In this document: in pieces, positions 17,890 through 36,788 of the stretch | Layout of the letters: the number at the start of each line of letters is the position of its first letter | Numbering within the stretch: position 1 is the stretch's first letter | Assembly: GCF_014334135.1 (NCBI RefSeq) | Contig: NZ_CP060497.1 | Location: forward strand, 1,364,001 to 1,428,000 | DNA from: Olivibacter sp. SDN3 | Lineage (GTDB): Bacteria > Bacteroidota > Bacteroidia > Sphingobacteriales > Sphingobacteriaceae | DNA: 64,000 bases | Reading direction: 5' to 3' | Notes under the pieces: generated by a model | Databases searched by the model: none | What the model saw: only the letters and a program-made list of their open reading frames with translations | What the model was told of the DNA's origin: nothing | Translations under genes and position numbers: made by a program

Positions 17890-17901
17890 TTATCGTTTTT
17901 T

Positions 17902-19440: not shown

Positions 19441-19457
19441 AGCAAAAACTTTTCCGT

Positions 19458-22400: not shown

Positions 22401-22991
22401 CTGCTGCGAACCAACGGTCGTCTCATGCGGACGATAGCCCATATAGCTAAATACCAATATACTTTGCTGATCAGCAACTGATAGCTGATAAGAGCCTTGA
22501 TTGTCTGTAACCGTTTTTTGGGAAGACCCTTTTACCAGCACATTAGCGCCCACTATCGGCGCAAGTGTCTGGGCATCACGCACCTGCCCTTTAATGATGA
22601 TACCTTGCGGCGCGCGCCGAAGGGCAATCGTACCATCTCTTTCTTCAAAAACGATGGATTCTTCCTTAAAGATATCATTCAAAACATCCGCGAGTTTACT
22701 ATTCTGATAACTTACCTTGTCCAACACCTTTTGGTCCAGGCGCAAGTCTTCGGTGAAAGCAAAATCTACTGTCAGTTGTTCTTCTATCTCCTTTAACAGT
22801 GTATAGATCGTTACACGGTTAAAAGATAGATGTAAGCGTTTTTCCAGCCCTCCCTCCAATCGGTATGCTTTGGCTTCGGCATAACCGCTGTAAAGCATGC
22901 CAAGAAACACTGTTGATAACATGATTTTTTGCATCAATCGCAAGTGTGATCTATTCATTTGTACTAATGGTTGAGGTAATTGAGATTTCAT
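19458..22991 (-). CDS. SusC-family TonB-dependent transporter with STN domain, operon A
   Basis: The protein is 1177 residues from the first ATG; a start at Met12 (22958, MNRSHLRLMQKIM) would give a more normal signal peptide. It has an STN domain (about 52-127), a carboxypeptidase-regulatory-like domain (about 132-205), the TonB-box-like NEVVVTALGIS (211-221), a plug (GVRITNSNGGIGSSANIQIRG) and the barrel. The STN domain is the part that signals occupancy to a FecR-type anti-sigma factor, whose gene is immediately upstream (31-bp gap). The EVVVTALGIS form goes with SusD_2 partners, as found here. Substrate inferred to be a phosphorylated compound from the operon's phosphatase. Confidence 0.93.
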   Translation of the reverse strand: MKSQLPQPLVQMNRSHLRLMQKIMLSTVFLGMLYSGYAEAKAYRLEGGLEKRLHLSFNRVTIYTLLKEIEEQLTVDFAFTEDLRLDQKVLDKVSYQNSKLADVLNDIFKEESIVFEERDGTIALRRAPQGIIIKGQVRDAQTLAPIVGANVLVKGSSQKTVTDNQGSYQLSVADQQSILVFSYMGYRPHETTVGSQQRIDITLQEDNNPLNEVVVTALGISREGKSIGFSQQKVEGQTIQESHETNLINTLNGRVAGVRITNSNGGIGSSANIQIRGQNFVSGYNYNNSPLFVVDGVPISNNNEQSTRSFTGRQDFNNPNLMGGPGDSESEVDYGNAAGELDPNDIESITVLKGPNAAALYGSRAANGVVLITTKSGKGTQGIGVSFNSQASAETPLKLPDYQYEYGQGLDGRYSYVDGMGAGLNDNVMENWGPRLNGQLIPQFDSPIDPNTGERMATPFVAYPNQLKDFLQTGHTFTNNLAIAGSNDKLNFRFSYTNTTQRGMVPNTDLTRNAIGINTGYAITPKLKVDVNMNYVNSGSDNRASYGAKNDDAIMKIFLYMPRNVNVNSLRNYWTDDNLRTQQLSPIWGLNSSRLNNPYFVAYENLNGNNRDRVYGNVKFTYNFLPNLTLMLRSGRDFYNDKRTMRHAVSSAQYVNGHYQEDDVYFLETNHDALLSYNTKIQDDFSINASLGGNLMNQESKRLGAIVDRLSIPNVYNLTNNASPIVAGNVRQQKKINSLYGTAQIGYKDALFLDLTGRNDWSSALPRHNRSYFYPSASLSMVASELFGWSSDALSYLKLRSSISAVRRDLEPYQTIPNFQVTQGWNGETVAIHNNNYPNPDIRPEKVSSYEFGFDSRFFNNRIGIDFTYYRSTTTDLIIPVTLNPSAGYDTKLMNVGKMRNNGIELMVDVTPVRTNQFSWNVNVNFGLNRNSVVYLAEDLGISRIRQLERWASLEMRTENTKGDGSFGSLYGDYLIYQNGTLTHRNGLPQEENGDWGYLGNVNPDYTGGITNQLSYRNFDLSFLFGFQKGGVVHSRTYIEGIRSGTLKESLINRDENGGGTMIGEGIDLDTGAPNATEVTVRNYWRAYYDNDHIATFDASYIKLREVKISYRIPEKTLRRTPFRQASLSLVGRNLVLWSDVPNIDPEVSGYDGQFQGLEAFSLPSQRSFGAALNINF

Positions 22992-23022: not shown

Positions 23023-24024
23023 TTAGAAGATTTTTAAGTCGCCATTCACCTCCTTTCTGTATTGTTTATTCAAAATGTGACAGATCGTCTCTACCGCGTC
23101 GGTAGCCGAACGATGGTATTTCAGGTTAATCGTATAGTGGTTCTGCAGCACTGTGGGATCTTCACTTTTCAGCACCACACCGTATATATCGTAAAAAGTA
23201 GCCGCTAACTCTTCGAAGTCCGCCCTATCCAGCGCAACAGCGCCTGTGAGCCAAGCATTGCCCAATGCGCCAATATGTGCCGTAAAACGATCGTCGTTTC
23301 GATCGTAGCTACCACTTTCATTAGCCGCCAATATGAGCTGCTGCTTTTGCCCGGTATTGCTGAGCTTGACTTTACCGGTTTGTACAGCCACCTGTGTCTC
23401 TTGCCGGTGGGAATAAGCTTTGATATTGAATGAGGTACCCAGTACCTGCACGGCGATATCATTGGTCTTTACACGGAATGGGCTTTCCGGCCGACCATGA
23501 ATCTCAAAAAAAGCTTCGCCTTCCAAGATGACTTCACGCTCATTTTTGCCATATCCAGGCAAGATACTTATCGTCGACCGGGCATTTAATATGACTATTG
23601 AACCATCTGGCAGTACCACTTTCTTTCTCTCCCCCACGGTGGTGGAGCTGCGTTGCGCTATGCTGGTTGTCTCGTTGCCTCCGTTCGACAATGAATTATT
23701 TGAAGAAAAGTAGCTGATGCTCCAAACACCACAACCTATTAAAACGATGCTTGCTGCGATCCCGGCCCATAGCCGAGCATGATGTAAACGCCTGTTCGGC
23801 TTCGGAGCAAGCACGCCGGTCTGTAAATTCCCCCATATGCGTGTGCTGACCATTTGCTTTTCTGCTGTCGTTTCAAAATGCTCAATCGGCGTTTTATCCC
23901 ATTCGAAAGACGCATACCAGCTATCTACGAGGCGTTTTTCCGCTTCGGAGCTTTTTTTCGTATAATACTTTTCCAGTATTTTCTTATAGATACTAAATTT
24001 CACTACATCCCTTTTATACCTCAA
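23023..24024 (-). CDS. FecR-type anti-sigma factor, operon A
   Basis: The 333-residue inner-membrane protein has a cytoplasmic N-terminal domain (about 1-85), one membrane helix (about 88-107, ARLWAGIAASIVLIGCGVW), a FecR domain (about 130-225; KKVVLPDGSIVILNARSTI, ILEGEAFFEI and FRVKTNDIAVQVLGTSFNIKAY) and a DUF4974-type C-terminal domain that meets the SusC STN domain. It holds the ECF sigma factor until SusC reports ligand. It lies between the sigma gene and susC. Confidence 0.93.
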   Translation of the reverse strand: MRYKRDVVKFSIYKKILEKYYTKKSSEAEKRLVDSWYASFEWDKTPIEHFETTAEKQMVSTRIWGNLQTGVLAPKPNRRLHHARLWAGIAASIVLIGCGVWSISYFSSNNSLSNGGNETTSIAQRSSTTVGERKKVVLPDGSIVILNARSTISILPGYGKNEREVILEGEAFFEIHGRPESPFRVKTNDIAVQVLGTSFNIKAYSHRQETQVAVQTGKVKLSNTGQKQQLILAANESGSYDRNDDRFTAHIGALGNAWLTGAVALDRADFEELAATFYDIYGVVLKSEDPTVLQNHYTINLKYHRSATDAVETICHILNKQYRKEVNGDLKIF

Positions 24025-24073
24025 TAGTGTATAAATGCCAGTCCTTATACTTCAAGAAAAGATGGTGAAATTG

Positions 24074-24673
24074 TTAACTTTTTGTAAAGAGGAAAGTGAT
24101 AAGGGAATAAATAGGCAGGTGTGGATATTCCTTTACCAGTTTACCCCGGAGTTGCTTCAAAGCGGCAGTGTGGTTGTTCCGCACCGTTTGCTCGGCTAAC
24201 TGAAGGGCACGCGCTATCTCAGCAATGGTAAAATCCTGCATACGCAACAGAAATATCTGTCGCATATTTTCGGGAAAGGAATGAATCACTTCGGCAATCG
24301 TCTTTTGCAGGGCTCCAGCTTCCATTGCGTCGAGGATCGTGTCTTCCATTTCTTCCATCCTTTGTAAAAGATGCGTATGCAATTGCTGCGCACGTGTTTG
24401 CTGACTTGCCCAGTAAATAATTTTGTATTTCAAGATGCTGTAGAGATAGTTGCGCAGTCCGCTGTGAATATACAGGTTTTCCTTTTTCGCCCAAAGGTCT
24501 GTAAAAACGTCCTGCACCATATCTTCAGCCAGTTCCTGGCTACGTAATCGGAAATAGGCCTTTTTATATAAGATTTCCCAATACTGCTCGAATACCTCTT
24601 TGAAGGCAAGCATATCGCCATTCCGTATTTTTTCAATCAGGGCAGCTTCTGGTATTTGTTGAAGGGCTTGCAT
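24074..24673 (-). CDS. ECF sigma factor (FecI/RpoE-like), operon A
   Basis: The 199-residue protein has sigma region 2 (about 22-90; AFKEVFEQYWEILYKKAYFRLR and DMVQDVFTDLWAKKENL) and region 4 (about 130-185; FLLRMQDFTIAEIARALQLAEQTVRNNHTAALKQLR). It recruits RNA polymerase to its own operon when released by the FecR protein. The gene has a TATCTTTG -7 element (24691-24698) preceded by two 11-bp direct repeats (24701-24722) that match the pstS promoter in sequence and spacing. Phosphate limitation therefore probably sets the level of this sigma factor and substrate sensing its activity. Confidence 0.93.
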   Translation of the reverse strand: MQALQQIPEAALIEKIRNGDMLAFKEVFEQYWEILYKKAYFRLRSQELAEDMVQDVFTDLWAKKENLYIHSGLRNYLYSILKYKIIYWASQQTRAQQLHTHLLQRMEEMEDTILDAMEAGALQKTIAEVIHSFPENMRQIFLLRMQDFTIAEIARALQLAEQTVRNNHTAALKQLRGKLVKEYPHLPIYSLITFLFTKS

Positions 24674-24690: not shown

Positions 24691-24722
24691 CAAAGATAGC
24701 CAGGCAATATTAGGTCAATGTT
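24691..24722 (-). promoter_or_regulatory. ECF sigma A promoter with PHO-box-like direct repeats
   Basis: On the minus strand the order is AACATTGACCT (24722-24712), AATATTGCCTG (24711-24701), GC, then TATCTTTG (24698-24691). The two 11-bp units are direct repeats (AAyATTG core) in phase with one helical turn, and they replace a normal -33 element. That is how PhoB-type activators work. The AACATT-to-TAnnTTTG distance (24 nt) is identical to that at pstS. Confidence 0.65.
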
Positions 24723-24758
24723 AAATGTGAAGCATCAAATCATATTGAAAAAAATAAT

Positions 24759-24798
24759 CCAATAAACAGGAATTCTATGGGAATTGCCTGTTTATTGG
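24759..24798 (-). terminator. Intrinsic terminator of operon B
   Basis: CCAATAAACAGG (24759-24770) and CCTGTTTATTGG (24787-24798) form a perfect 12-bp stem, with further AATTC/GAATT pairing inside. Read on the minus strand it is followed by ATTATTTTTTT. It sits 10 bp after the stop of the phosphoesterase gene. Confidence 0.75.
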
Positions 24799-24807
24799 CA
24801 AACAACA

Positions 24808-26595
24808 CTATTTGTTTAGCAATTCTAGGTAATACTGCTTAATGGCATAAGGTAGATTGACAATCTCTTCCAAGTTAGCATCGAAGTTAACACGCTGTCC
24901 ATCAGCAAAGGTTATTTGCTTAGCTACTGGATCAAAAATTGCTGGTTGAGCCTTTCCAACACCGTTATAGTCTCCGGGAATTGGAAGATCCCCCTTTTTC
25001 CCAAGTTTCACCGAACCTTTTTTCCCATATACCAACCATTCACCGGTTGATGGACGCCATACCGCCATATCGACTTTCCCATCCCCATCATAGTCAGCTG
25101 GAACCGGGACATCACCTTCCTCACCAAAAGGCACATTTCCCACTGTTGCGATATACCAAGTCTTATTATTTAAGCGCCAAACGGCCATTTCCGCGACGCC
25201 ATCGCCGTCGTAATCTGCAGGTACGGGCACCGATGCCTCCCAGCCATGCTTTACCGGCTCACAACCGTCTACCAGCCACTCGGCAGTATGCGGATTCCAT
25301 ACCGCTATATCAGCAATTCCGTCGCCATCATAATCAGCCGGAACTGGGATGTCACCTGTTTTCCCTAAAGAGATTGCCTTCCAGTCATTCAAATAAAAGG
25401 AAGCTGTTGTCGGGTTATATACTGCCGGACTTGTTTTGCCATAACTATTATAATAAGAAGGTACAGGTATATCACCTTTTCTTCCCAGCGAAGCGATTAT
25501 ACCATCGATACCAAACCAATTGCCATGTTTAAAACTGAGCGGTTTGCTTTTGCCATCCAAGTCAATATCGAATGTTCTTGACGCGGCAACTTCTCTAAAG
25601 AGCGGAACAGAAAAATGACTGTCATCGTCGTTTTCTTCCAAATCGTGGTACGGTGAAAAGGTCCTTACCCTTAACACATCTTTCTCCAGATCAAAAGTTA
25701 GCAAACGCATCAAACCGTTGCCTCCCATTGGTCGGCTCTGATAATCAGAAAGCATTGTCTTAGTAGTATGACCGGCATAAGTATCTTGCCGATAACCTTC
25801 CCCATTATCCCCCACATGGCCGCACAGCATTAAGAACACATTGGGTTGTGTTTTGATACGGTCATAAAGTCGCTGTCCCTGCTTTCCGAAAGCGGCCTGT
25901 CCGGCAACATTGCTGCCGGCTATAGGATTATATCCGATGATATAATGACTGACGATGATTGCCTTTCTGTCTGGGTATTTTTCCAGCAAATCCACCGCCC
26001 AATCGTTCATGGCGTCCTGTTGTTCGTCAAAAGCATCAAACTCAATATAAATCACGAGTAGATCAAGACCTCCAGCTGAGATTAAATCATAATGGCTATC
26101 GTTATCATCGCCAAAATGTCCGCCATAATAATCCCGCCCTTGAAAATGATCCACTCCAAAATATTTATTATAATAAAATGTCTCTCCGCTGCGGGCGAAC
26201 TGGCTAGGATATTGATCATGATTACCTACGGCCATTCCGTAGGGAAGGCCGTGAGGCAAGCGGGGCAAGGGTTTTTCCAGTTGATGCATCGCTTTTGCAG
26301 CGTTTGCCCATTGTTCCGGTTTACGGTCGCCCTTATCGGTAATATCGCCCAGATGGGCTAAATAAACGATATTTTCCTTTTCGCGATTGGCCAGTACCCA
26401 CTCAATCATCGTTTCAAACAATCGATTAGTTCCTCCCTGACTTTCCTCCGTATTATACTGTGTATCAGGAATAACAGCTATGGAAAACGTTCTTTTGGAA
26501 GTGTCTTGTGCAAACAGCTGTATTGTTGTACAGCTTACCGCTATGAGCAACAAGGTGCAAACTTTTCTCAATTTTCTTTTATTCATCTTTTTCAA
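24808..26595 (-). CDS. Secreted calcineurin-type metallophosphoesterase with C-terminal FG-GAP-like repeats
   Basis: The 595-residue protein has a signal peptide (1-30) and a metallophosphoesterase domain (about 35-330) with all dimetal motifs: Asp44 (IPDTQ), Asp84 (HLGDITD), GNHD (124-127), His217 (VSHYI) and GH (259-260). The C-terminal part (about 360-565) has five repeats of about 40 residues built on PVPADYDGDGxxDxAVW; the first and last are degenerate. These look like calcium-binding VCBS/FG-GAP propeller blades and may bind a surface or polymer. It is the last gene of operon B, 1 bp after susD. The substrate is a phosphomono- or diester, not further defined. Confidence 0.9.
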   Translation of the reverse strand: MKKMNKRKLRKVCTLLLIAVSCTTIQLFAQDTSKRTFSIAVIPDTQYNTEESQGGTNRLFETMIEWVLANREKENIVYLAHLGDITDKGDRKPEQWANAAKAMHQLEKPLPRLPHGLPYGMAVGNHDQYPSQFARSGETFYYNKYFGVDHFQGRDYYGGHFGDDNDSHYDLISAGGLDLLVIYIEFDAFDEQQDAMNDWAVDLLEKYPDRKAIIVSHYIIGYNPIAGSNVAGQAAFGKQGQRLYDRIKTQPNVFLMLCGHVGDNGEGYRQDTYAGHTTKTMLSDYQSRPMGGNGLMRLLTFDLEKDVLRVRTFSPYHDLEENDDDSHFSVPLFREVAASRTFDIDLDGKSKPLSFKHGNWFGIDGIIASLGRKGDIPVPSYYNSYGKTSPAVYNPTTASFYLNDWKAISLGKTGDIPVPADYDGDGIADIAVWNPHTAEWLVDGCEPVKHGWEASVPVPADYDGDGVAEMAVWRLNNKTWYIATVGNVPFGEEGDVPVPADYDGDGKVDMAVWRPSTGEWLVYGKKGSVKLGKKGDLPIPGDYNGVGKAQPAIFDPVAKQITFADGQRVNFDANLEEIVNLPYAIKQYYLELLNK

Positions 26596-26596
26596 G

Positions 26597-28150
26597 TTAA
26601 TATCCCGGATTTTGTATTAATTCTGGATTGACGCCCACTTCTGCAAAAGGCAGTGGATAAAGGAGTTTAGCCTCATCTACCTGATACGATCCAGGTAAAA
26701 GATAAGTATGCGTTTCTTTGAGTTTAGTGCCATAAGCATTCATCACCCCAATAATTTCTCCTGCGCGGATCAGATCAAACCAACGGTGGTTTTCAAAGGC
26801 AAGTTCCACCCGTCGCTCATGTAGGATAAGTTCACGCAGATCTTCCTGGCCATTTGTAGCCAAAGGTGATATCCGCGGCATTGCACGGCTTCGAACCCGA
26901 TTTAGATTAGCGAGCGCTTCCTGCATTTTCCCTTGCTCATTCTGCGCTTCGGCCAACAATAGCAGCGCATCCGCAAAACGGTACACCGGCCAGTTATCAT
27001 CCGTATTGAGCACATCTGTGTGGGGGTTCAGGTATTTCTTAATAAAAGGTACACCGGTTTTTCCTTCAGGTGCTTGGTAATTCACTATGCTCCGCTGTGC
27101 ACTCAGTGTAAAGTAATAACTGCCATCATAGTTCCCTTCAGCTATACCAATCGAAGCCTCCAAACGTGTATCTCCAGGTTCATAAGCATTGATGATATCC
27201 TGCGTAGGCGTATTCCACCCACCGCCATTAGCCTCGGTTGCGGTGTTATTCGTGGGCACGCCGTAAGTGACCAAAGCCGTATTATAACATTTCGGGAGAA
27301 AAATGTAAATAAAATTACTCTGCACACCCGTTTCCAGTCCCTGCATAAATTGAACTTCAAAAATAGATTCGCGGCTATTCTTATTTACTGTTGAAAAAAC
27401 GTCCGCATAGTTATTTAACAATCCGTATCCCATAGGTTCCAGGGTCAATAAAAGTGTTTCGGCACGGTCATATTGTTTCAATGTAGCGTATATATCTGCC
27501 AGCAGCATCGTAGCCGACCCTTTACTGGCATAACCGGATTGTGGAAACGTAGTTGGAGGAGCAAGCAGTTCTATGGCAGACGTAGCGTCAGTGATTATTT
27601 GGTTATACACCTCTTCCTGACTGGACCTTGGAAGAAAGGCATCTGTTTCATTGATTACTTCCTGCAAGTATAGCGGTACTCCGCCAAAATAGCGGACAAG
27701 TTTAAAGTAGTAAAAAGCTCTCAAAAACAATGCTTGTCCTTTAAAATTGCTTCTTTCGTCCTCACTGATATCCGCCTGATCTACACGTGCCAAAACAATA
27801 TTAGCCCGAGATATTCCTTTATAACTATCATAATAAATTTGATTGGAATAGTTATTACTGGCATCGTTGGTAAAATCAGCGATATCCATCCGCATCTTAA
27901 CGGCCGTTCCCTGAATAGCTGGATTAAATTCATAGTGTGTATTATCAGAGCGCATCTCTCCGGTATAATAATCCGGCCCAACTGTTCGGAGTGGGTTGTA
28001 AGCCGCATTAATCGCCTGCGTAAAGTCTGCGGTTGTTTTAAAGAAATTCGCTCCTGAGACCTGATCTTCCGGTACCAATTCTAAAGCATTTTTACAAGAA
28101 GCAAGGGGCATGGCAAAAGCAGCCAGCAATATATAGAAATATCTTTTCAT
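26597..28150 (-). CDS. SusD/RagB-family outer-membrane lipoprotein, operon B
   Basis: This 517-residue classic SusD has a lipoprotein signal with lipobox LASC (MKRYFYILLAAFAMPLASCKN), the opening LELVPEDQVSGANFFKT, the TPR-like segment FKGQALFLRAFYYFKLVRYF, and the C-terminal HERRVELAFENHRWFDLIRAG plus the closing NPELIQNPGY. It follows susC by 30 bp and precedes the phosphoesterase gene by 1 bp, so the three are surely co-transcribed. It binds the ligand for SusC at the cell surface. Confidence 0.93.
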   Translation of the reverse strand: MKRYFYILLAAFAMPLASCKNALELVPEDQVSGANFFKTTADFTQAINAAYNPLRTVGPDYYTGEMRSDNTHYEFNPAIQGTAVKMRMDIADFTNDASNNYSNQIYYDSYKGISRANIVLARVDQADISEDERSNFKGQALFLRAFYYFKLVRYFGGVPLYLQEVINETDAFLPRSSQEEVYNQIITDATSAIELLAPPTTFPQSGYASKGSATMLLADIYATLKQYDRAETLLLTLEPMGYGLLNNYADVFSTVNKNSRESIFEVQFMQGLETGVQSNFIYIFLPKCYNTALVTYGVPTNNTATEANGGGWNTPTQDIINAYEPGDTRLEASIGIAEGNYDGSYYFTLSAQRSIVNYQAPEGKTGVPFIKKYLNPHTDVLNTDDNWPVYRFADALLLLAEAQNEQGKMQEALANLNRVRSRAMPRISPLATNGQEDLRELILHERRVELAFENHRWFDLIRAGEIIGVMNAYGTKLKETHTYLLPGSYQVDEAKLLYPLPFAEVGVNPELIQNPGY

Positions 28151-28180
28151 CTGTTTTTTGTATTTATTTTTGATGGTTGC

Positions 28181-31100
28181 TTATTGAAAAAGTACATTTA
28201 CTCCAAGGGAAAAGGTACGCGGAACAGGATACGCATTTTCGTCAATGCCGATGCTGGCGCCATCTAGTCCGTCTAAACTGATTTCCGGGTTCATCCCGGA
28301 ATAGTTGGTGAGTATGAATGCATTTTGTATTGATGCATATAGGCGAAGCTGTTTAATAGGCCCCGCGTTCTTCACCGTTTGCCGATACCCCAGTGTAATA
28401 TTTTTAATAGTCAGGAATGAACCATCTTCGACCCATTGCGAATTTACCTGCCTACCGATACCGGTGGAGCCCGTTTTTGTACGGGGAAACTTTCCCGACC
28501 CTGGATCGTCTTCCGATCGCCAGCGATCCGCCGCCTCTGCCAACAAATTGCGGGCGCCATCCATATTGATTAAATAAGCCCACTTCGCTGGCAAAATAAT
28601 ATCACCACCGACAGCCCCCGCCATAGAAATTCCCAGATCAAAGTTCCCATAGGTAAAATTGTTGGTAAAGCCGAAGAGAAAATCAGGATTTGGATCACCG
28701 ATAAATGTGCGATCATTTTCGTCAATGATACCATCGTTGTTCATATCCCGCATTTTGATGGTGCCCACATCAGAAGCGTTCTCTTTTGCCGAATTAGCTA
28801 AGTCTTCTGCATCCTGATACAAGCCTTCAAAAATATAACCGTAGAACATGCCCAGTGGATAGCCTTCTTGGTTCCGATAATAATCGGAACTGGTTGTATT
28901 ATTTCTTCTAAAGTAGCCCGGACTAACCAGGGATTGAATATGATTCCGGTTAAAAGAAATATTAAAAGCTGTATTCCAGCTCAACTTTCCGAAATCGAAT
29001 TGGCCACCCAAGCTAAACTCATGTCCCCAAAATTTGATTTCGCCGACATTGGAAGTAATATTACTGTAGCCCGATCCCTGCGGAATAGGTCGTGCCTGTA
29101 TGAGGCCATCAGATAGTTTACGGTAATAATCATAAGTAAAGAACAAGCGATCATCGAACAAAGCTACATCTAATCCCACGTCAAGCTGCTTACTGCGTTC
29201 CCAAGCAAGATTCGTATTACCCAATGTAGTAATAGTGGTTCCGGGAGCCAAGTTCCCATTCGCCACATAGTCTGCCGCGCCCAATTGTGCAATATGCGTA
29301 TAGTTACCGATATTATTATTGCCGGTAATGCCATAGCTTGCGCGAATTTTAAACATATTCAGGGTGTGACTCCAGGCTTTCATAAAAGCCTCATCACTGA
29401 TAATCCAACCAGCAGAGAATGATGGGAAAGCACCATACTTCTGGTCCTGCCCAAAACGGCTAGAGCCGTCCCAGCGCATCGACGCACTCAACAAATACCT
29501 ATTTTTAAAACTGTAGTTCACTCTTCCCAGATAAGATAGCAGTGCGAAAGCCGTTGCATTACTTGAACCATCTGTGATATTGGCTGCCACATTCAAATAG
29601 GGAACCTCATCGCTGGCGAAATTTCTACCCGTCACGCTGTTGCTTTTTTGATCGAAGGATTGATAGGCATATCCTGCCAGCACATCCAGGGCATGTGCCT
29701 CCCATCGCTTATTATAGTTTAGATTAGCTTCTGCGGTATAACTATAATTAGTCACTGAGCTGCTCGTTCCGGTAGAGATGTCATCGCCATTAATTAAAGC
29801 AGGTGAAAAAAACTGTCGGGTTTCATCGCCTTTATCCACGCCGAATAGCCCTTTAAAGCTCAATCCATCATAAATTTGATAGTCCAAATGTGCGTTACCA
29901 AGAATTCGGGTAGTCACATAATCATCCTGCACTTCCATGTGTCTGGCTAGCGGATTTATATAACTCACCATTCCGGGTGAGTGAGCAAATTTGTTGTAAT
30001 TACCATTTTCATCGAAAGGATCGATTAAAGGGCTAGCTTCCGAGGTTTTCTGCACGATACCCTGAATACCGTCTTCCAAACGATTGTTATGATCCTGTCG
30101 GTAACTAGGCGCTAAGTTAAACCCCACTTTTAGCCTATCGTCAAATAGCCGATATTCCTGGTTAATTCGGATAGAATAAAGCTTGGTCCCGCTATTCACC
30201 ACTACCCCCTGTTGATTTTGGTATCCGGCCACTACCGATGAAGTAGTGTGTTGCCCAGCACCGGTAAAACTCAAGTCATAATTTTGGATAGGTGCTGTTC
30301 GCGTCAATAAATTAAACCAATCCGTGCCTTTCCCATAGCGTTCGGGGTTTTGATAAACCTCAGGGATATCTCCCGTAAAACCCTCATAACGTATCATATC
30401 CTGATAACGTTCGTTCATAAACGTAGCATACTCTCTTGCATTCATCATCACCGGTACTCCTTGACGTGGTATCTGCTGAACGCCATAATTTGCATTCAGT
30501 TCCACCTTTGTTTGATCGCCGGGTTTGGCGTGCTTGGTTGTGATTAAGATTACGCCATTGGACGCCCGGGAACCATATAATGCTGTAGCTGAGGCATCTT
30601 TTAAAACTGTAAAAGATTCTATTTCTGCAGGGTTAATATTATTGATGCTTCCCGTAATAGGCATACCATCTATCACAAAGAGAGGTGAATTACCTGATGA
30701 CAATGAAGCCGCATTACGAATGCGCCATGACATACCGCGTCCAGGCTGGCCAGAAGTTTGGTAAATCTGTACCCCGGCTAATTTCCCTTGCAATTGTTGC
30801 GCAAACTGGTTAACCGGCATATCTTGCAGGTTTTGCGTGCTGATTTCTTCCAATGCACCAGTGATTTCCCTTCTGCGCTGCGTACCGTAACTCACTACCA
30901 CTTCTTCCAGCTGTCCGGTACCCTTTAAGGTCACGTTCAAGGGCGTATCCTTGTTTTCCATGATATTAATACCCTGCTGCTCATAGGTTTCGTAACCAAT
31001 ATAACTTATCCGAAGCGTGTAGGTCCCCGGACTTGCCTGTAGTGTAAATCTACCGTCCTCCCCACTCATTGTTCCACTATTTATGCCCAGCAAATTAATG

Positions 31101-31525
31101 CTTGCCCCGATCAGAGGCTGTCCGTCGCTTCCCAGAACGGTTCCCCTTAACCTTCCCGGTTGCTGTTTCCGATTAATGTAAATACTTCCTTCCCTGATTT
31201 CGTATACCAGCTGAGCGTGTTCCTCTAGATGTCCTAAGAGGTCGGTCAAACTTGTCTGCTGATTAGGTAAAGCTACCACGGTTTTATCATTGATTTGCGT
31301 TGGGCTATAAATAAGATTGAGGCCCGACTGTTCCTGAACGGTCTGCAAAATTTTACCCAGGGAGAGGTTTTTAGCCTTGAAATGTACAATCATGTCGGCA
31401 GGCTGTTGCGCCTCACTTTTATTAGCAAATAGGGTACCTCCTATCGATGTCATTACGATGAAGGTCAATAGTGATAATTTCATAAAAGCAGTAATAGGTA
31501 TATCCTGTTTTCGTATTTTTAGCAT
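28181..31525 (-). CDS. SusC-family TonB-dependent transporter with STN domain, operon B
   Basis: The 1114-residue protein has an N-terminal signal (about 1-40), an STN domain (about 45-118), a carboxypeptidase-regulatory-like domain (about 125-202), the signature EEVVVSYGTQRRREITGAL (207-225), a plug and a barrel with a typical C-terminus. The STN domain links it to the FecR protein encoded upstream. A 98-bp gap to fecR holds an intrinsic terminator facing the other way (31576-31608), a sign of an antisense RNA over the 5' leader. Substrate inferred to be phosphorylated, from the downstream phosphoesterase and the PHO-box-like element at the head of the operon. Confidence 0.93.
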   Translation of the reverse strand: MLKIRKQDIPITAFMKLSLLTFIVMTSIGGTLFANKSEAQQPADMIVHFKAKNLSLGKILQTVQEQSGLNLIYSPTQINDKTVVALPNQQTSLTDLLGHLEEHAQLVYEIREGSIYINRKQQPGRLRGTVLGSDGQPLIGASINLLGINSGTMSGEDGRFTLQASPGTYTLRISYIGYETYEQQGINIMENKDTPLNVTLKGTGQLEEVVVSYGTQRRREITGALEEISTQNLQDMPVNQFAQQLQGKLAGVQIYQTSGQPGRGMSWRIRNAASLSSGNSPLFVIDGMPITGSINNINPAEIESFTVLKDASATALYGSRASNGVILITTKHAKPGDQTKVELNANYGVQQIPRQGVPVMMNAREYATFMNERYQDMIRYEGFTGDIPEVYQNPERYGKGTDWFNLLTRTAPIQNYDLSFTGAGQHTTSSVVAGYQNQQGVVVNSGTKLYSIRINQEYRLFDDRLKVGFNLAPSYRQDHNNRLEDGIQGIVQKTSEASPLIDPFDENGNYNKFAHSPGMVSYINPLARHMEVQDDYVTTRILGNAHLDYQIYDGLSFKGLFGVDKGDETRQFFSPALINGDDISTGTSSSVTNYSYTAEANLNYNKRWEAHALDVLAGYAYQSFDQKSNSVTGRNFASDEVPYLNVAANITDGSSNATAFALLSYLGRVNYSFKNRYLLSASMRWDGSSRFGQDQKYGAFPSFSAGWIISDEAFMKAWSHTLNMFKIRASYGITGNNNIGNYTHIAQLGAADYVANGNLAPGTTITTLGNTNLAWERSKQLDVGLDVALFDDRLFFTYDYYRKLSDGLIQARPIPQGSGYSNITSNVGEIKFWGHEFSLGGQFDFGKLSWNTAFNISFNRNHIQSLVSPGYFRRNNTTSSDYYRNQEGYPLGMFYGYIFEGLYQDAEDLANSAKENASDVGTIKMRDMNNDGIIDENDRTFIGDPNPDFLFGFTNNFTYGNFDLGISMAGAVGGDIILPAKWAYLINMDGARNLLAEAADRWRSEDDPGSGKFPRTKTGSTGIGRQVNSQWVEDGSFLTIKNITLGYRQTVKNAGPIKQLRLYASIQNAFILTNYSGMNPEISLDGLDGASIGIDENAYPVPRTFSLGVNVLFQ

Positions 31526-31529
31526 ATAT

Positions 31530-31608
31530 TTAAGTGTTTTTGATTTTTTTGTGGAAAAACGGTTGAAAACGATTTGCCGGGTCTGTTGACCGCAGATCCG
31601 GCTTTTTT
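31530..31608 (+). ncRNA. Predicted cis-antisense RNA against the susC leader, operon B
   Basis: A strong plus-strand terminator (31576-31608) lies between fecR and susC with no plus-strand gene ahead of it. A TATTTTTA sequence at 31514-31521, one base off the -7 consensus, could start a short transcript of about 80 nt running antisense to the susC 5' leader. No clear -33 element is seen, so the start is a guess. Known parallel: DonS-type antisense RNAs between the anti-sigma and susC-like genes of Bacteroides loci. Confidence 0.35.
31576..31608 (+). terminator. Orphan plus-strand intrinsic terminator in the fecR-susC gap, operon B
   Basis: GCCGGGTCTG (31576-31585) and CAGATCCGGC (31593-31602) make a 10-bp stem with one G-T pair and a 7-nt loop, followed by TTTTTT (31603-31608). 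It faces against the operon and no plus-strand gene precedes it. Confidence 0.75.
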
Positions 31609-31623
31609 ATTTTACGCGGGTTT

Positions 31624-32601
31624 TTAGTTTGTTATAATCACCTCCTTTTTTATTATTTTATAATTAAAATGATTGATTTTGCGAAGGGCATTTAATACCT
31701 CTTCTAAGCTCGGGTTATCGAACTTTGCAGTGAAAGTCTCGCGATCGCCTGTCGTCAATAAAAGTTTACAGGATATGCCATACCATCCCCAAAGTTTATC
31801 CGCAATTTCTTTCCAGGAAGCATTTTTAAGAATAAATTCATTCGATTTCCAAGCACTGAAATCCGTTGTCCGGGCATGTTTCACGGAATGATTCCCGCCC
31901 TCTCGATTATAGGTAAACTGTTGACCTGCATCTACCGGAATAAGCGGTACACGCCCATCCTTACTGCGTACATTCACCTTACCCGTATTGACCGTTAACA
32001 TGTATTGGTTACGATGATTACGCATCTGTATATTAAAAGACGTTCCCAGAACCTGTGTGCGCAGTCCGTCGGCATATACGATAAAAGGTTTGGCCGGATC
32101 AGTTCTTATCTCAAAGAAGGCTTCTCCGCTATCGAGCAACACTTCCCTTCGGGCACCACGAAAAGCCTGATCGTACCTGATCGATGAATTGCCATTTAGC
32201 CAAATGACACTACTATCAGGTAACAGCAATTTCGCTTTTTGCCCGGCCTTCGTTTGAAATGTAGACAGCTGAGGGATAGCATCTACCTGTTCTACCGACG
32301 CCGTTTCCTTCCGGAAGAAGAAAATATAACCTATACCGATAAGCAGGAGGAATGCCGCAGCAATGCTTTGCCAGCTTCTGAATCGCTTAACGGATGTTAT
32401 TACCGGTATGTTATTGCCGAAAGTCCTGCCTCTTATATGCGTAAACATTTCTTTCTCTATACGTTTCAAATCCGCTTCATCCAGGTGCGCTGCTTTCTCC
32501 CCCGATGTGCTAAACCATTCATCGACAAAAAGCTTCTCTTCCGCACTACACTTTCCTGACAGGTATTTTTCAAGTAATTTCTTGAGCTGTTCGCTATCCA
32601 T
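31624..32601 (-). CDS. FecR-type anti-sigma factor, operon B
   Basis: This 325-residue protein has an N-terminal cytoplasmic sigma-binding region (about 1-80), a membrane helix (about 85-105, SIAAAFLLLIGIGYIFFF), a FecR domain (about 120-215; KLLLPDSSVIWLNGNSSI, LDSGEAFFEI and LRTQVLGTSFNIQMRN) and a DUF4974-type C-terminal domain (about 245-325). It keeps the sigma factor encoded upstream inactive until the SusC STN domain contacts it. There is a 103-bp gap to the sigma gene. Confidence 0.92.
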   Translation of the reverse strand: MDSEQLKKLLEKYLSGKCSAEEKLFVDEWFSTSGEKAAHLDEADLKRIEKEMFTHIRGRTFGNNIPVITSVKRFRSWQSIAAAFLLLIGIGYIFFFRKETASVEQVDAIPQLSTFQTKAGQKAKLLLPDSSVIWLNGNSSIRYDQAFRGARREVLLDSGEAFFEIRTDPAKPFIVYADGLRTQVLGTSFNIQMRNHRNQYMLTVNTGKVNVRSKDGRVPLIPVDAGQQFTYNREGGNHSVKHARTTDFSAWKSNEFILKNASWKEIADKLWGWYGISCKLLLTTGDRETFTAKFDNPSLEEVLNALRKINHFNYKIIKKEVIITN

Positions 32602-32704
32602 GTGTACCTTTTACCCCAATGAGTCAAAAGATTAGCAGCAGTACCAATGCGTACCGATTAAGAAAGTATTAAGAAATTGTTATAGGTAAATAAACAGCGT
32701 GTCT

Positions 32705-33271
32705 CTACAGCAAAAATAAAGTCGATAAGAGGTGTTCCTTCATAGCAACACGAATCTTCCGTTTGGCGTGCACCAGTTGGTTTTTTACGGTCTGTTCAGC
32801 TAACTGCATTTCTTTAGCTATCTCCTGCGTGGTATAATTTTCTTCGTTATGCAGTTTAAATATACGTTGTTGCTTTTCGGGTAATTGCTCAACCTGTTGA
32901 CTAAATCGCTCATGCAATTCATTCGCAAAGATATCCTGATCGCTCGCCGCAGTCATCGCGTCGACCAGTTGCTGATAGTCAAACTTCTGCTCTTCCCATC
33001 TTGCAACCCTTTGCATTCGTCGAATGATTTCGTATTTCGTCATGCTGTAAAGATAGGCCTCCACAGGACCTCGAATCTGAATTACCTCCCTTTTTTGCCA
33101 AAGTTGGATATAGATCTCCTGCACGACATCTTTCGACTCATCCTCGTCCCGGGTTTTATTAAAGGCAAGTAGGTATAATTCACGCCAAGTATGTCTATAC
33201 AGCGTAGTAAACGCTTCTGCATCTCCCTTTTTGACTGATAAGAACAGCTCTTGTAACGTATAGTTATCCAT
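32705..33271 (-). CDS. ECF sigma factor, operon B
   Basis: The 188-residue protein has sigma region 2 (about 15-85; AFTTLYRHTWRELYLLAF and DVVQEIYIQLWQKRE) and region 4 (about 125-175; FKLHNEENYTTQEIAKEMQLAEQTVKNQLVHAKRKIR). It starts operon B and is divergent from pstS, with start codons 184 bp apart. Its -7 element TAGCTTTG (33289-33296) is the same octamer as at pstS and is preceded by three 11-bp repeat units, which links the operon to phosphate control. Confidence 0.92.
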   Translation of the reverse strand: MDNYTLQELFLSVKKGDAEAFTTLYRHTWRELYLLAFNKTRDEDESKDVVQEIYIQLWQKREVIQIRGPVEAYLYSMTKYEIIRRMQRVARWEEQKFDYQQLVDAMTAASDQDIFANELHERFSQQVEQLPEKQQRIFKLHNEENYTTQEIAKEMQLAEQTVKNQLVHAKRKIRVAMKEHLLSTLFLL

Positions 33272-33288
33272 AAAGCTAGGTGCCTAAG

Positions 33289-33331
33289 CAAAGCTAAGGC
33301 CCGACTATTAAACGAAGGTTATTATAATGTT
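33289..33331 (-). promoter_or_regulatory. ECF sigma B promoter with three PHO-box-like 11-bp units
   Basis: On the minus strand: AACATTATAAT (33331-33321), AACCTTCGTTT (33320-33310), AATAGTCGGGC (33309-33299), CT, then TAGCTTTG (33296-33289). The best unit lies one helical turn further from the -7 element than at the other two promoters. The unit nearest the -7 is degenerate, so this is the weakest of the three sites. Confidence 0.5.
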
Positions 33332-33401
33332 AAATAGTAAATGCGCTTTGACGGTGCGTTTTGCCAAACACTTCTACCATTATTTTCCTTCATGTAAAAT
33401 C

Positions 33402-33433
33402 AACATTAAGGTAATATTCATTTATTAGCTTTG
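33402..33433 (+). promoter_or_regulatory. pstS promoter with PHO-box-like direct repeats
   Basis: AACATTAAGGT (33402-33412) and AATATTCATTT (33413-33423) are 11-bp direct repeats, followed by AT and the -7 element TAGCTTTG (33426-33433). No TTTG/TTG -33 element is present, so the promoter should depend on an activator. The start codon is at 33456, leaving a leader of roughly 15-20 nt. Confidence 0.65.
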
Positions 33434-33455: not shown

Positions 33456-34286
33456 ATGCGGTACATTCTTTCTTTTTTTATACTATTATGTGCTTGCAGC
33501 AGTTATGACAGATCTATCAAAGTGAAAGGATCAGACACGGAGGTAAACCTAGCTGTTACCCTAGCTGAGCACTTCTATAGTGTCAATCCGGACTTTAGTG
33601 TAGCTATTTCTGGGGGAGGATCAGGGCTTGGAATTGCCTCTTTGTTAAACGGACAAGCGGATATAGCGAATTCTTCCAGACCCTTGAATGCCGAAGAAGA
33701 CAGTTTATTTAAGGTTAGAAAAATAGCATTACATACGATTGTATTCGCCGAAGACGCTACAGCCTTTATTGTACACAAAAAATTCCCCAAAGACACCTTA
33801 GATATTCCCTCGTTAGCCAAAATTTTAAGCGGCTCTTACCGTACATGGAAGCCTGTGACAGGACAAGAGATGCCGATCAATATCTATGGAAGGCAGAGCA
33901 ATTCAGGAACACATACCTTTGTCCAACAAAAACTTGGCATTCATTTCAGTAGAGAGGCAAAAGAAATGAACGGAAATGCGCAGATTATGGAGAGCATTAA
34001 GCTGGATCGGTCGGGTATCGGATACGTGAGTGCTGGATATATTGCCCACGTTGAGAAAGAGCAGGACGTCAAAGTACTTTACATACGTAGTTCGCCAAAA
34101 GAAAATGCCGTTTCTCCTTTAGACGAGCAGGCCATTAAAGAAAAACGCTACGCTTTTCAGCGTCCCTTATATCAATTTATACCTAGCACCTCTTGGGATA
34201 AAGTCAAAACCTTTATTGATTTTGAAAAAAGCGAAAAGGGCCAGGCGATTATTAAGGCTTCCGGATACTATATTACGACGCGTTAA
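33456..34286 (+). CDS. pstS: Phosphate-binding lipoprotein PstS
   Basis: The 276-residue protein is the periplasmic phosphate receptor of the Pst ABC transporter. It has a short lipoprotein signal (MRYILSFFILLCACSS, Cys at about 13 or 14). Typical phosphate-binding segments follow: VKGSDTEVNLAVTLAEHF, ISGGGSGLGIASLLNGQADIA (phosphate loop), SSRPLNAEE and GRQSNSGTHTFVQQKLG. It is the first gene of a four-gene operon with no phoU gene following. Confidence 0.93.
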   Translation: MRYILSFFILLCACSSYDRSIKVKGSDTEVNLAVTLAEHFYSVNPDFSVAISGGGSGLGIASLLNGQADIANSSRPLNAEEDSLFKVRKIALHTIVFAEDATAFIVHKKFPKDTLDIPSLAKILSGSYRTWKPVTGQEMPINIYGRQSNSGTHTFVQQKLGIHFSREAKEMNGNAQIMESIKLDRSGIGYVSAGYIAHVEKEQDVKVLYIRSSPKENAVSPLDEQAIKEKRYAFQRPLYQFIPSTSWDKVKTFIDFEKSEKGQAIIKASGYYITTR

Positions 34287-34298
34287 AAAAACATAAAA

Positions 34299-35189
34299 AT
34301 GGAATTAAGTGCCAAAGAAAAAATTGACTTTATCGCCAAATGCATCTTTCGAGCAACCGGTGTTTTTATCATAGCCATCCTCGGGGGTATATTTCTCATG
34401 TTGTTGTGGAATACCATAGCATTTCTAATCGAAATAAAACCTTGGGATTTTATTAGCGGTACACAATGGAACCCCTCGGGAGTCCCTGCATCATATGGTA
34501 TATTGCCCTTACTGGTAAGCACCTGTTTGGTTACTTTCGGAGCCATGCTCATCGCCATACCTATTGGCATCGGCACGGCGGCATTTCTTTCGGAATATGC
34601 TGGCAAAAAGCTACGCAATGTACTCAAACCGACCATCGAAATGTTGGCAGCCGTGCCATCCGTTGCTATCGGCTTTTTAGGAATTGTTATTTTAAGCCCA
34701 AAGCTCGGTGAGCTGTCTAGCCAACCGAATGGTCTCAATGCGCTCAACGGCGCGATTCTACTTGCTGTCATGGCATTGCCTACTATCATAACCGTTACAG
34801 AAGATGCCATACATAGTGTGCCGCAACCGTATAAAGAAGCAAGTTTTGGCCTAGGAGCTAACCGTTGGCAGACCTTGCGTAAAATCACCATTCCGGCAAG
34901 TGCTCCGGGTATTATAGCGGCGGTTATGCTAGGTGTTGGTCGCGCTTTGGGCGAAACGATGACGGTACTCATGGCTACTGGCAATGCATCAGCCTTTCCA
35001 AAAGGATTTTTTCATTCGGTACGGACAATCACAGCAACAATAGCCATAGAAATGGGAGAAGTACCCTATCAGACTACGCATTACTATAGCTTATTTGCCA
35101 TTGCCACTGTTCTCTTCCTGTTCACCCTCATTGTAAATCTGATTGGGGAGCATTATGTCAATAAGTTTAAAAAATATCAGGCCTTATGA
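34299..35189 (+). CDS. pstC: Phosphate ABC transporter permease PstC
   Basis: The 296-residue inner-membrane permease has six predicted helices. The coupling (EAA-like) loop is at about 170-205 (VPQPYKEASFGLGANRWQTLRKITIPASAPGI), and VPSVAIGFLGIVIL is the family signature. It starts 12 bp after pstS and overlaps pstA by 4 bp. It forms the channel with PstA. Confidence 0.94.
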   Translation: MELSAKEKIDFIAKCIFRATGVFIIAILGGIFLMLLWNTIAFLIEIKPWDFISGTQWNPSGVPASYGILPLLVSTCLVTFGAMLIAIPIGIGTAAFLSEYAGKKLRNVLKPTIEMLAAVPSVAIGFLGIVILSPKLGELSSQPNGLNALNGAILLAVMALPTIITVTEDAIHSVPQPYKEASFGLGANRWQTLRKITIPASAPGIIAAVMLGVGRALGETMTVLMATGNASAFPKGFFHSVRTITATIAIEMGEVPYQTTHYYSLFAIATVLFLFTLIVNLIGEHYVNKFKKYQAL

Positions 35190-36037
35190 GTATGAGAAAG
35201 TTGACATCGATAATCGAATGGGGCAGCCTACTCTTTTGCACGGGCATTGTATGTTTTTTTCTGATCGTCATCATTGGAGATATCATAAACAAAGGCTCTT
35301 CGGCCTTATCTTGGGCGTTTGTCAGCACATTACCGACCGACGGCATGACCAAAGGTGGAATTCTGCCTGCAATAATGGGTACCGTATTACTTACTTTGAT
35401 AACAGCAACTGTATCCGCACCTTTTGGCCTGTGTTGTGCCATCTATCTTAACGAATATGCCTCCAATAACTGGCTTACCCGGCTTATCCGCGCATCCATC
35501 CGTAATTTAGCGGGTGTTCCTTCTATCATTTATGGTCTTTTTGGCTTAGCGCTATTTGTACAGGGACTCCATATGGGTACCTCGCTGCTATCTGCGGGCT
35601 TTACCTTGGGACTGCTGTCACTCCCCTATATTATCACCACAACAGAAGAAGCACTGCGCCGCGTACCGGCAAGTACCAGAGAAGCTGCGCTTGGCGTGGG
35701 CGCCACCCAATACGAGTCTATTCGTGATATGGTTCTGCCGTCCGCATCGCCGGGTATTCTTACCGGGCTGGTACTAACTTTATCACGAGCAGCAGGGGAA
35801 ACGGCACCAATCCTTTTCACCGGTGTCGCGTTCTACATCAACAACCCGACTGGTTTCCTTAATCAGGAGTTCATGGCTTTACCCTATCACCTGTATATGT
35901 TATCCACCCAACATCAATCTATCGAAGAAGTCAGGCCGTTGGCTTACGGTACTGCCCTTGTCCTAATCATAGTGGTTTTCCTATTAAATAGTTTTGCCTT
36001 TTATATACGTAATAAATACAGCAAAAATGAAGGATAA
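35186..36037 (+). CDS. pstA: Phosphate ABC transporter permease PstA
   Basis: The 283-residue permease has six predicted helices, the PstA hallmark NLAGVPSIIYGLFGLALFV and the coupling loop VPASTREAALGVGATQYESIRDMVLP. Its start overlaps the pstC stop (ATGA) and its end overlaps pstB by 11 bp, so the operon is translationally coupled. Confidence 0.94.
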   Translation: MSMRKLTSIIEWGSLLFCTGIVCFFLIVIIGDIINKGSSALSWAFVSTLPTDGMTKGGILPAIMGTVLLTLITATVSAPFGLCCAIYLNEYASNNWLTRLIRASIRNLAGVPSIIYGLFGLALFVQGLHMGTSLLSAGFTLGLLSLPYIITTTEEALRRVPASTREAALGVGATQYESIRDMVLPSASPGILTGLVLTLSRAAGETAPILFTGVAFYINNPTGFLNQEFMALPYHLYMLSTQHQSIEEVRPLAYGTALVLIIVVFLLNSFAFYIRNKYSKNEG

Positions 36038-36788
36038 ACAAATAAAGCTTGCCGCCTTAGGGGTCAACCTATGGTTCGGTTCCAAACAGGTACTAAAAAA
36101 TATCCATGTAAATTTTGAAAAAAATAAGGTAACCGCTCTTATCGGTCCTTCGGGTTGCGGAAAAAGCACCTTATTGCGTTGCTTTAACAGAATGCACGAC
36201 CTTAGTCCAGATGTGAGGATAGCGGGACAGTTTTTATTGGACAGAAAAAATATTTATGATGCAGATTTATCGGTAACCCAGGTTAGAAGACGCATCGGTA
36301 TGGTTTTCCAAAAGGCTAACCCTTTTCCGAAAAGTATCTATGAAAACGTTAATTACGGATTAAAAATCAATCATGTTCCAAAAGGGCAACGACAACATAT
36401 AATTGAAACTTCCCTTAAAGAAAGTTTTATTTGGGAAGAGGTAAAAGATGATCTACTAAGGCCAGCGACGCGTTTATCAGGCGGGCAGCAGCAAAGGCTC
36501 TGCATTGCTAGAACAGTAGCCTTGCGACCGGAAGTCATCCTAATGGATGAGCCTTGCTCTGCTCTTGACCCTATCAGTACACTTAAAATAGAGGAACTTA
36601 TCGTGAAATTAAAAGAGCGATACACTATTATCATTGTGACTCACAATATGCAACAGGCGCAGCGTGTTGCGGACAAAACCGTCTTTATGTACCTCGGCGA
36701 GATTATAGAGGAGAATAGGACCTATCAATTATTTAACCATCCCAAAAATGAACTCACGGCTAATTATGTCAATGGAAAATTTGGCTAA
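36027..36788 (+). CDS. pstB: Phosphate ABC transporter ATP-binding protein PstB
   Basis: Starting at the ATG at 36027 gives 253 residues (MKDKQIKLAALGVNLWFGS). An upstream in-frame ATG at 35994 lies well inside pstA and is unlikely. It has Walker A GPSGCGKSTLLR, the Q-loop VFQKANPFPKSIYENV, signature LSGGQQQRL, Walker B VILMDEP and the switch His in VTHNM. It powers phosphate import. A strong terminator follows at 36894-36920. Confidence 0.95.
   Translation: MKDKQIKLAALGVNLWFGSKQVLKNIHVNFEKNKVTALIGPSGCGKSTLLRCFNRMHDLSPDVRIAGQFLLDRKNIYDADLSVTQVRRRIGMVFQKANPFPKSIYENVNYGLKINHVPKGQRQHIIETSLKESFIWEEVKDDLLRPATRLSGGQQQRLCIARTVALRPEVILMDEPCSALDPISTLKIEELIVKLKERYTIIIVTHNMQQAQRVADKTVFMYLGEIIEENRTYQLFNHPKNELTANYVNGKFG

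Follow-up and report, generated by a model that had tools for sequence, protein, structure and literature searches.

A PHO-box-like element shared by pstS and two phosphatase-linked ECF sigma factor genes suggests phosphate control of SusCD clusters in Olivibacter and its relatives

The genome of Olivibacter sp. SDN3 (NZ_CP060497.1) is a single contig of 6.12 Mb, and the stretch of it analyzed here, 64,000 nucleotides from 1364001 to 1428000 (the window), carries an element of tandem 11-bp repeats ahead of the phosphate gene pstS and of two extracytoplasmic function (ECF) sigma factor genes, sigma A and sigma B, each of which heads a FecR-SusC-SusD cluster with a phosphatase or phosphoesterase gene. 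By PstS, the closest named relatives among the matches listed are Olivibacter species, with 83 and 82% identity. We show that the element has an exact geometry, that it is specific, and that it recurs in other genera, both at phosphate genes and in front of ECF-FecR-SusCD clusters linked to a phosphoesterase. Its features make it very probable that the element serves this lineage as its PHO box and places the ECF genes under PhoB, suggesting a chain in which phosphate hunger turns on dedicated sigma factors and these run phosphate-scavenging gene clusters.

The three sites have a common layout, i.e., two TAAYATTNNNN-like units with an 11-bp period, 3 nt, and then TAnnTTTG. At pstS the full site (33401-33433, + strand) comprises the array CAACATTAAGG TAATATTCATT at 33401..33422, which was also the best match in the window of a matrix built from the pstS promoters of other species (16.7), followed after 3 nt by the -10 sequence TAGCTTTG at 33426..33433, 22 nt from the ATG; a possible weaker third unit lies ahead of this array at about 33390. 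The sigma A site (24723-24691, - strand) consists of TAACATTGACC TAATATTGCCT at 24702..24723, 3 nt, and the -10 sequence TATCTTTG at 24691..24698, 17 nt from the ATG, and that of sigma B (33332-33289, - strand) of three units, TAACATTATAA TAACCTTCGTT TAATAGTCGGG, at 33300..33332, 3 nt, and TAGCTTTG at 33289..33296, again 17 nt from the ATG. Not every unit conforms, as the first of pstS starts CAACATT and the last two of sigma B read TAACCTT and TAATAGT. The original prediction had placed boxes at these three genes with equal spacing at the first two, and all three were found, with units and -10 spaced identically throughout. Its claim that none has a -33 TTTG held for TTTG itself at every site, with the qualification that sigma A carries a TTG 20 nt upstream of the -10 TA, within the first unit. 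The arrays are direct repeats of about seven conserved bases with an 11-bp period, as is expected of a PHO box, and at all three sites they appear to adjoin the -10 at the place of the -35, with no -33 TTTG. Written as AACATTN5AATATTN7TANNTTTG, the element had two exact matches in the window and one with two mismatches, compared to 0.26 expected at up to three mismatches, and the expectation for exact matches is about 2e-5 per 64 kb and 0.002 per genome. A third ECF gene in the window, sigma C (56893..57489, - strand), belongs to another SusCD cluster and served as a negative control; as had been predicted, it lacks the box and its scores were those of background (2.3 for two units and 7.1 for box plus -10).

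An expectation-maximization search of 60 dereplicated upstream regions, taken from 80 pstS loci of other species and made without the window, arrived at essentially the same motif: ctTAAYATTnnGtTAACATT repeats with an 11-bp period, at a log-likelihood of 496 versus 96-107 in three shuffles. At up to three mismatches, the explicit pattern derived from the window was present on the coding strand of 20 of the 80 pstS upstream regions versus 1 on the opposite strand. The Olivibacter genome has 57 matches to the ECF family TIGR02985, of which 53 were scored (2329479, 4116746, 860341 and 938329 were left out). Ranked with the matrix from other species, the top two places by two units went to sigma A (16.4) and sigma B (12.9), in that order, and by three units sigma B led (19.0). 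A combined score for box plus -10, which borrows its -10 and spacer from the window, gave 24.8 for sigma A and 21.0 for sigma B; the other 51 ECF genes reached at most 13.7, and the maximum in 2120 shuffled upstream regions was 15.4. Two further ECF genes, 3573462 (14.2 by three units) and 4903020 (15.4), were considered as targets and rejected, since they fell to 7.8 and 13.7 once the -10 was included, and comparison with the window proteins found no metallophosphatase or alkaline phosphatase at either. The ECF genes that flank the 80 pstS loci were also scored, and in none of the 14 was a box clear, the highest two-unit score being 11.2, so the neighborhood of pst and ECF genes is itself not conserved.

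Genome-wide, the box is enriched at phosphate genes: at no more than one mismatch the pattern occurred only at pstS, at sigma A and at an operon for a DUF47 protein and a PiT transporter (L003/L050, G000:C1:1557534-1560388), where a PhoR-like kinase gene, the box, DUF47 and then PiT follow one another. Allowing three mismatches proved too noisy for listing a regulon, and the matrix and a stricter TAAYATT pattern were used instead. Forty-nine of the 51 looser matches were examined with the matrix and 11 scored at least 15, five of them linked to phosphate: PiT (27.7), sigma A (24.8), pstS (21.7), sigma B (21.0) and a type I phosphodiesterase (19.0). The last of these genes (G000:C1:548304; L016, L212) has its three-mismatch box about 21 nt upstream.

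The stricter pattern, TAAYATTN4TAAYATTN7TANNTTTG, was present without mismatch in 128 of 201 genomes of the family, a reversed control matched in 0 of 201, and about 0.08 matches in all would be expected from the composition of the window. Thirty of these family loci were listed, and 23 were DUF47-PiT operons (the PiT gene being cut off in one), 22 of which adjoin a PhoR-like kinase gene; the other seven comprised three TonB-type receptors (recognized by eye or from a weak seed match) and four copies of a secreted protein of one genus (one incomplete). Across the phylum the exact pattern occurred in 15 of 296 genomes, 10 of which lie outside the family, and controls gave 0, so that in its strict form it is mainly a family feature. 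The 10 extra-family loci, classed by seed comparison and by eye, were one DUF47-PiT operon, six TonB-type receptor-like genes (one beside pstS), two porin-like genes and one that was unclear.

Targets other than PiT were followed at 20 family sites that were hand-picked before their genes were seen, the grounds being either letters unlike those of PiT sites or an earlier match in the same genome; similar non-PiT sites exist outside the 20, e.g., at G089:C6, G198:C6, G009:C132, G026:C22 and G189:C24. The largest class, 8 of the 20, was ECF-FecR-SusC. The remainder were five DUF2490 genes (two by family scan, three alike by eye), two metallophosphatase genes, for which the true start is uncertain since both open reading frames (ORFs) as called begin before the site, one histidine phosphatase, three TonB/SusC genes and one AraC-type regulator. 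A phosphoesterase follows in seven of the eight ECF clusters found in this way: MetallophosN/C in L266, L267, L269 and L272, an alkaline phosphatase (by homology) in L270, Exo_endo_phos in L271 and one of the purple acid phosphatase type in L273, the only exception being L268, in which none was seen downstream. As a control, 20 boxless ECF regions (19 with fecR) were used, from which 40 of 47 downstream proteins were scanned (six were incomplete ORFs and one was omitted), and the 25 families shown, out of 82, included no phosphoesterase, a view in which weaker single matches could be hidden. These downstream proteins, from boxless ECF clusters of the Olivibacter genome, were of such types as glycoside hydrolases and oxidoreductases. 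One boxless cluster, 2592056 (L195), carries a metallophosphatase, so linkage to a phosphatase does not always imply a box.

These eight clusters had been found through the box, and a second series of regions was chosen by homology to SusD B or to the phosphatases alone. Among 16 ECF genes heading FecR-SusC clusters in this series, 13 scored at least 15 for box plus -10: L196 (15.5), L197 (15.2), L198 (17.5), L199 (15.5), L202 (18.9), L203 (22.3), L205 (24.3), L206 (18.6), L208 (19.6), L210 (21.4), L213 (21.1), L274 (21.2) and L275 (19.6). In L196 and L197 an adjacent ECF gene has a clearer box (23.0 and 23.9). Of the 12 regions around relatives of the alkaline phosphatase, L278, L280 and L283-L285 had no matching SusCD or ECF genes beside them and L282 was only 152 bases long. 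For the comparisons of clusters below a set of 24 was used, which includes the eight found through the box and the two of the window; the figure that is independent of the box is the 13 of 16, for which L202 and L279 were included and L270 was left aside.

A number of observations weigh against the element being a PHO box that governs these genes. Five of the 60 pstS upstream regions used in training scored below 10, and by three units sigma A came only fourth of the 53 ECF genes (9.1), behind two with no seen link to phosphate. With its -10 and spacer modelled on the window, the combined score is dependent for the three window sites, and it is the unit-only ranking of the 53 ECF genes that is the independent test. 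The genome-wide scan, which the original prediction had proposed as a check, spoke in its favor at one mismatch and did so less clearly at three, where 51 matches versus 29 for the reversed control make the pattern only weakly specific. Six of the 11 sites scoring at least 15 front no evident phosphate gene: a gene for a tetratricopeptide repeat (TPR) protein (23.4), a 68-aa ORF (19.3), an outer-membrane protein gene (16.4), a 501-aa ORF (15.6) and two sites with no ORF (18.2 and 16.5). Among the homology-chosen clusters three of 16 failed, namely L200 (11.4), L201 (6.8, the units being present with the -10 one base off) and L279 (5.0), and L196, L197 and L199, at 15.2-15.5, are at the edge of the shuffle maximum. 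Many of the clusters are related by descent, so the counts are not independent. The candidate for PhoB itself, L164, is under the equivalog cut-offs of TIGR02154 and NF053854 (225.6 of 296.2 and 220.5 of 270 bits), is an orphan regulator lying apart from the PhoR-like kinase/PiT locus in the Olivibacter genome, and has a box with no well-placed TAnnTTTG (score 7.0). On balance the scans, the de novo motif and the units ahead of the candidate phoB still favor what had been predicted, i.e., a lineage PHO box with ECF genes under PhoB.

In the mechanism that we propose, a box of two or three units, standing 3 nt before the TAnnTTTG -10 of Bacteroidota housekeeping promoters, would replace the -33 element. 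During phosphate starvation, phosphorylated PhoB would most likely bind the tandem units and recruit housekeeping RNA polymerase, and its targets would include pstSCAB, the PiT operon, phoB and the two ECF sigma genes. Once FecR has been signalled, the ECF sigma factor made in this way would turn on susCD and the phosphatase gene, such that both low phosphate and substrate would be needed. We infer both the binding of PhoB and the activation that would follow from it.

That the ECF sigma factor passes control on to susCD is probable, and the evidence for it comes from where the box is and is not. In the 24 ECF clusters the box was ahead of the ECF gene in 22 (score at least 15), and ahead of susC the score was below 8 in all 24; the sigma gene thus seems to be the point of entry for phosphate control. 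The alternative is that PhoB binds as proposed, but that the ECF step adds nothing and susCD and the phosphatase gene are co-transcribed or constitutive. Sigma, fecR and susC do lie on the same strand with short gaps, and there are clusters lacking an ECF gene that have the box at susC, as this alternative would have it, but it is left unlikely by the uniformly low scores at susC in ECF clusters and by SusC itself. In the 24 ECF clusters the carboxypeptidase-like domain of SusC starts at residue 112-157, compared to 33-52 in 10 SusC proteins (one of them in the Olivibacter genome) with no adjoining ECF gene, which means that an N-terminal extension kept in the former is missing from the latter. 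This extension received no STN domain from Pfam, and one relative (L205) shows a weak FecR_C match within it. L279, in which the neighboring ECF gene has no box, has a SusC without the extension, which fits with that ECF factor not being its regulator. In 3 of the 10 ECF-less cases the box ahead of susC was beyond the shuffle maximum (L276, 19.9; L277, 17.5; L204, 16.2), L281 was weak (14.0) and the other six scored 2.6-9.8. In clusters with a box at susC, where ECF, FecR and the SusC extension are absent, the relay may have been swapped and the phosphate input kept.

A second array may add a further layer to this relay. Ahead of fecR in cluster A (24048..24090, - strand) it reads TTTACAAAAAG TTAACAATTTC ACCATC, with GTA at 24048-24050, and ahead of fecR in cluster B (32641..32685, - strand) TAACAATTTCT TAATACTTTCT TAATC, with GTAC at 32641-32644. 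Throughout the 24 clusters, the gap between the ECF gene and fecR contains units resembling TTAACAATTTC with an 11-bp period (log-likelihood 321 versus 105-108 for shuffled sequences), which are 83-90 nt from the called fecR start in 17 clusters and 48-77 nt in the other seven. The matrix of this array scored 16.5-31.2 in the 24 clusters and at most 9.5 in 19 control fecR upstream regions, but it was trained on those same clusters and scores high by construction, so that the shuffles and the count of GTA are the fairer measures. GTA was found at offset 40 or 41, outside the modelled columns, in 22 of 24 clusters versus a background of 2.6%; the base before it makes CGTA in four clusters and AGTA or GGTA in most others. 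For Flavobacterium psychrophilum, the presence of CGT at the -10 of a promoter motif has been described as strongly hinting at an ECF sigma factor (PMC9723704). The second array has units similar to those of the box, and its final unit lies 15-16 nt before GTA, compared to 14 nt between the final unit of the box and TAnnTTTG. A promoter with GTA ahead of fecR would need the ECF sigma factor and perhaps PhoB as well; some of the clusters share a common descent. Help from PhoB for the ECF sigma factor at fecR is our tentative suggestion, one that we hold somewhat less likely than not to be correct, and equally tentative is the wider scheme in which PhoB acts twice in each module, at the ECF promoter and at the fecR array, and in which the box can stand at susC where the relay is absent. 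Under this scheme, PhoB with the housekeeping sigma factor would first make the ECF sigma factor from the promoter of box plus TAnnTTTG, and PhoB on the fecR array would then work with that ECF sigma factor, with GTA(C) in place of the former -10 at near-equal distance. The outcome would be a feed-forward loop with a single activator serving two sigma factors.

Whether PhoB is the protein that binds can also be questioned, as another regulator of the OmpR family could govern the genes for phosphate and organic phosphorus. Tandem repeats are common in the OmpR family, and the Olivibacter genome carries ten of its regulators, four of which were scored against PhoB models; the orphan status of L164 and its place under the equivalog cut-offs count here too. 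In one of the other regulators, L166 (1480-2190, - strand), the start codon is itself covered by box-like units (TAACATTTAGTTAATATG), and this gene is perhaps a repressed target. Against this, L164 had the top TIGR02154 score of the four and is directly preceded by three box units, the targets are the classical phosphate set of pstS, PiT and phosphatases, and a PhoR-like kinase gene adjoins the PiT box, making it quite improbable that a regulator other than PhoB is responsible. A further reading, that AT-rich housekeeping promoters, or copies made of the pst/ECF region inside the genome, produced the shared sequence incidentally, fits with the AT-rich units, the two sites in one intergenic region and the several high-scoring sites with no evident phosphate gene, but it is largely contradicted, and extremely improbable, given the empty reversed controls in 201 and 296 genomes, the low scores of the other 51 ECF promoters and spacer bases that differ between the three sites while the units agree.

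The kind of regulation proposed here is already known, from Flavobacterium clusters, B. fragilis PhoB and the PhoB-ECF link of P. aeruginosa. The E. coli PHO box, as described, is built of tandem 11-bp units (seven bases conserved and four less so) near the -10, replacing the -35 (PMC4415409, PMC4971064), and PHO boxes differ between species (PMC4415409). The Olivibacter element shares the described layout and position and differs in its unit, TAAYATT, not CTGTCAT, in its -10, TAnnTTTG, and in its targets, which include ECF-FecR-SusCD clusters. Of the units compared, its closest counterpart is that of the cyanobacterial SphR Pho box, CTTAACCT, reported as 8 bp plus a 3-bp linker in at least three tandem copies (PMC1906773), which has a TTAAC core and the same 11-bp period but belongs to another phylum and to other targets. 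For Bacteroides fragilis, of the same phylum, binding of PhoB (PhoRB) to the pst promoter was reported from an electrophoretic mobility shift assay with a 512-bp fragment, and the portion of that paper drawn on here gives no box sequence (PMC3547664).

At the level of the clusters, the PUS clusters of Flavobacterium johnsoniae are reported as strongly induced in low phosphate and as containing ECF and FecR genes (PMC8115612). As described there, PUSII (PhoA1 with PF00245+PF13653, PusD2, PusC2 and FecR) has the gene content of cluster A, and PUSI (phosphodiesterases, PusCD1 and an ECF gene) resembles cluster B. The main text of that paper does not contain the words pho box or motif; our proposal for Olivibacter concerns the cis element, the order in which control passes, and the second array. 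In the PUMA3 system of Pseudomonas aeruginosa (vreAIR, sigma-VreI), PhoB is described as driving the operon for ECF and anti-sigma factors and as also binding ECF-dependent promoters, where it is required, with the pho box of the target genes upstream of an ECF -35/-10 pair (PMC4971064). The Olivibacter type differs in that the fecR array ends 15-16 nt before GTA and in that susC is without a box. No PHO-box sequence for Bacteroidota, and no link there between PhoB and ECF factors, was found among the top-listed open-licence titles and abstract openings, and apparently new compared to these are the sequence of the lineage box, its presence at ECF genes, the array ahead of fecR and the rewiring. 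A readable PHO box for a large family would allow phosphate regulons to be proposed from sequence alone, and provides a possible mechanism by which low phosphate induces SusCD-phosphatase clusters, as seen in Flavobacterium. For systems of ECF, FecR and SusCD, usually regarded as substrate-responsive, a nutrient two-component system appears to act as the gate, and since some natural clusters have the ECF relay and others lack it, this control logic is testable.

The genes behind the three sites lie as follows. On the + strand, pstS, pstC, pstA and pstB (33456-34286, 34299-35189, 35186-36037 and 35994-36788; overall 33456..36788) were identified by family scans in the case of pstS (PF12849) and pstB (TIGR00972), and pstC and pstA were named from position and sequence only. 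On the - strand, sigma A (24074..24673; PF04542/PF08281; TIGR02985 at 106.7 bits, under the cut-off of 126.4) is followed by fecR A (23023..24024; PF04773; start codon uncertain), encoding an anti-sigma factor/regulator, and by the rest of cluster A (16054..22991), i.e., susC A (19458-22991), susD A (17902-19440) and an alkaline phosphatase gene with GDPD_2 (16054-17889). Sigma B (32705..33271; PF04542/PF08281; 108.5 bits, under the same cut-off) is likewise followed on the - strand by fecR B (31624..32601; PF04773/PF16344) and by susC B (28181-31525), susD B (26597-28150) and a phosphoesterase gene (24808-26595), which together make up the rest of cluster B (24808..31525); the phosphoesterase is calcineurin-like with FG-GAP repeats, and both susD genes were named from sequence and position. 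SusC/SusD genes beside one for a phosphomono- or diesterase, the gene content of a PUS, are present in clusters A (PF00245+PF13653) and B (PF00149), and so is a TonB receptor gene adjoined by those for an ECF sigma factor and FecR, the gene content of ECF/FecR cell-surface signalling.

Some further features were noted along the way. The TPR protein gene (L048, G000:C1:5853707) has a strong box plus -10 and no known phosphate role. The five DUF2490 loci with an exact box (L248, L249, L251, L254 and L255) have an enolase-like gene, recognized by sequence, adjoining in four cases, and the DUF2490 protein is a predicted member of the phosphate regulon. By eye, many ECF clusters have between fecR and susC a hairpin-like sequence, e.g., near 31560-31615 in the window and in the sigma C cluster too, a possible terminator or attenuator.

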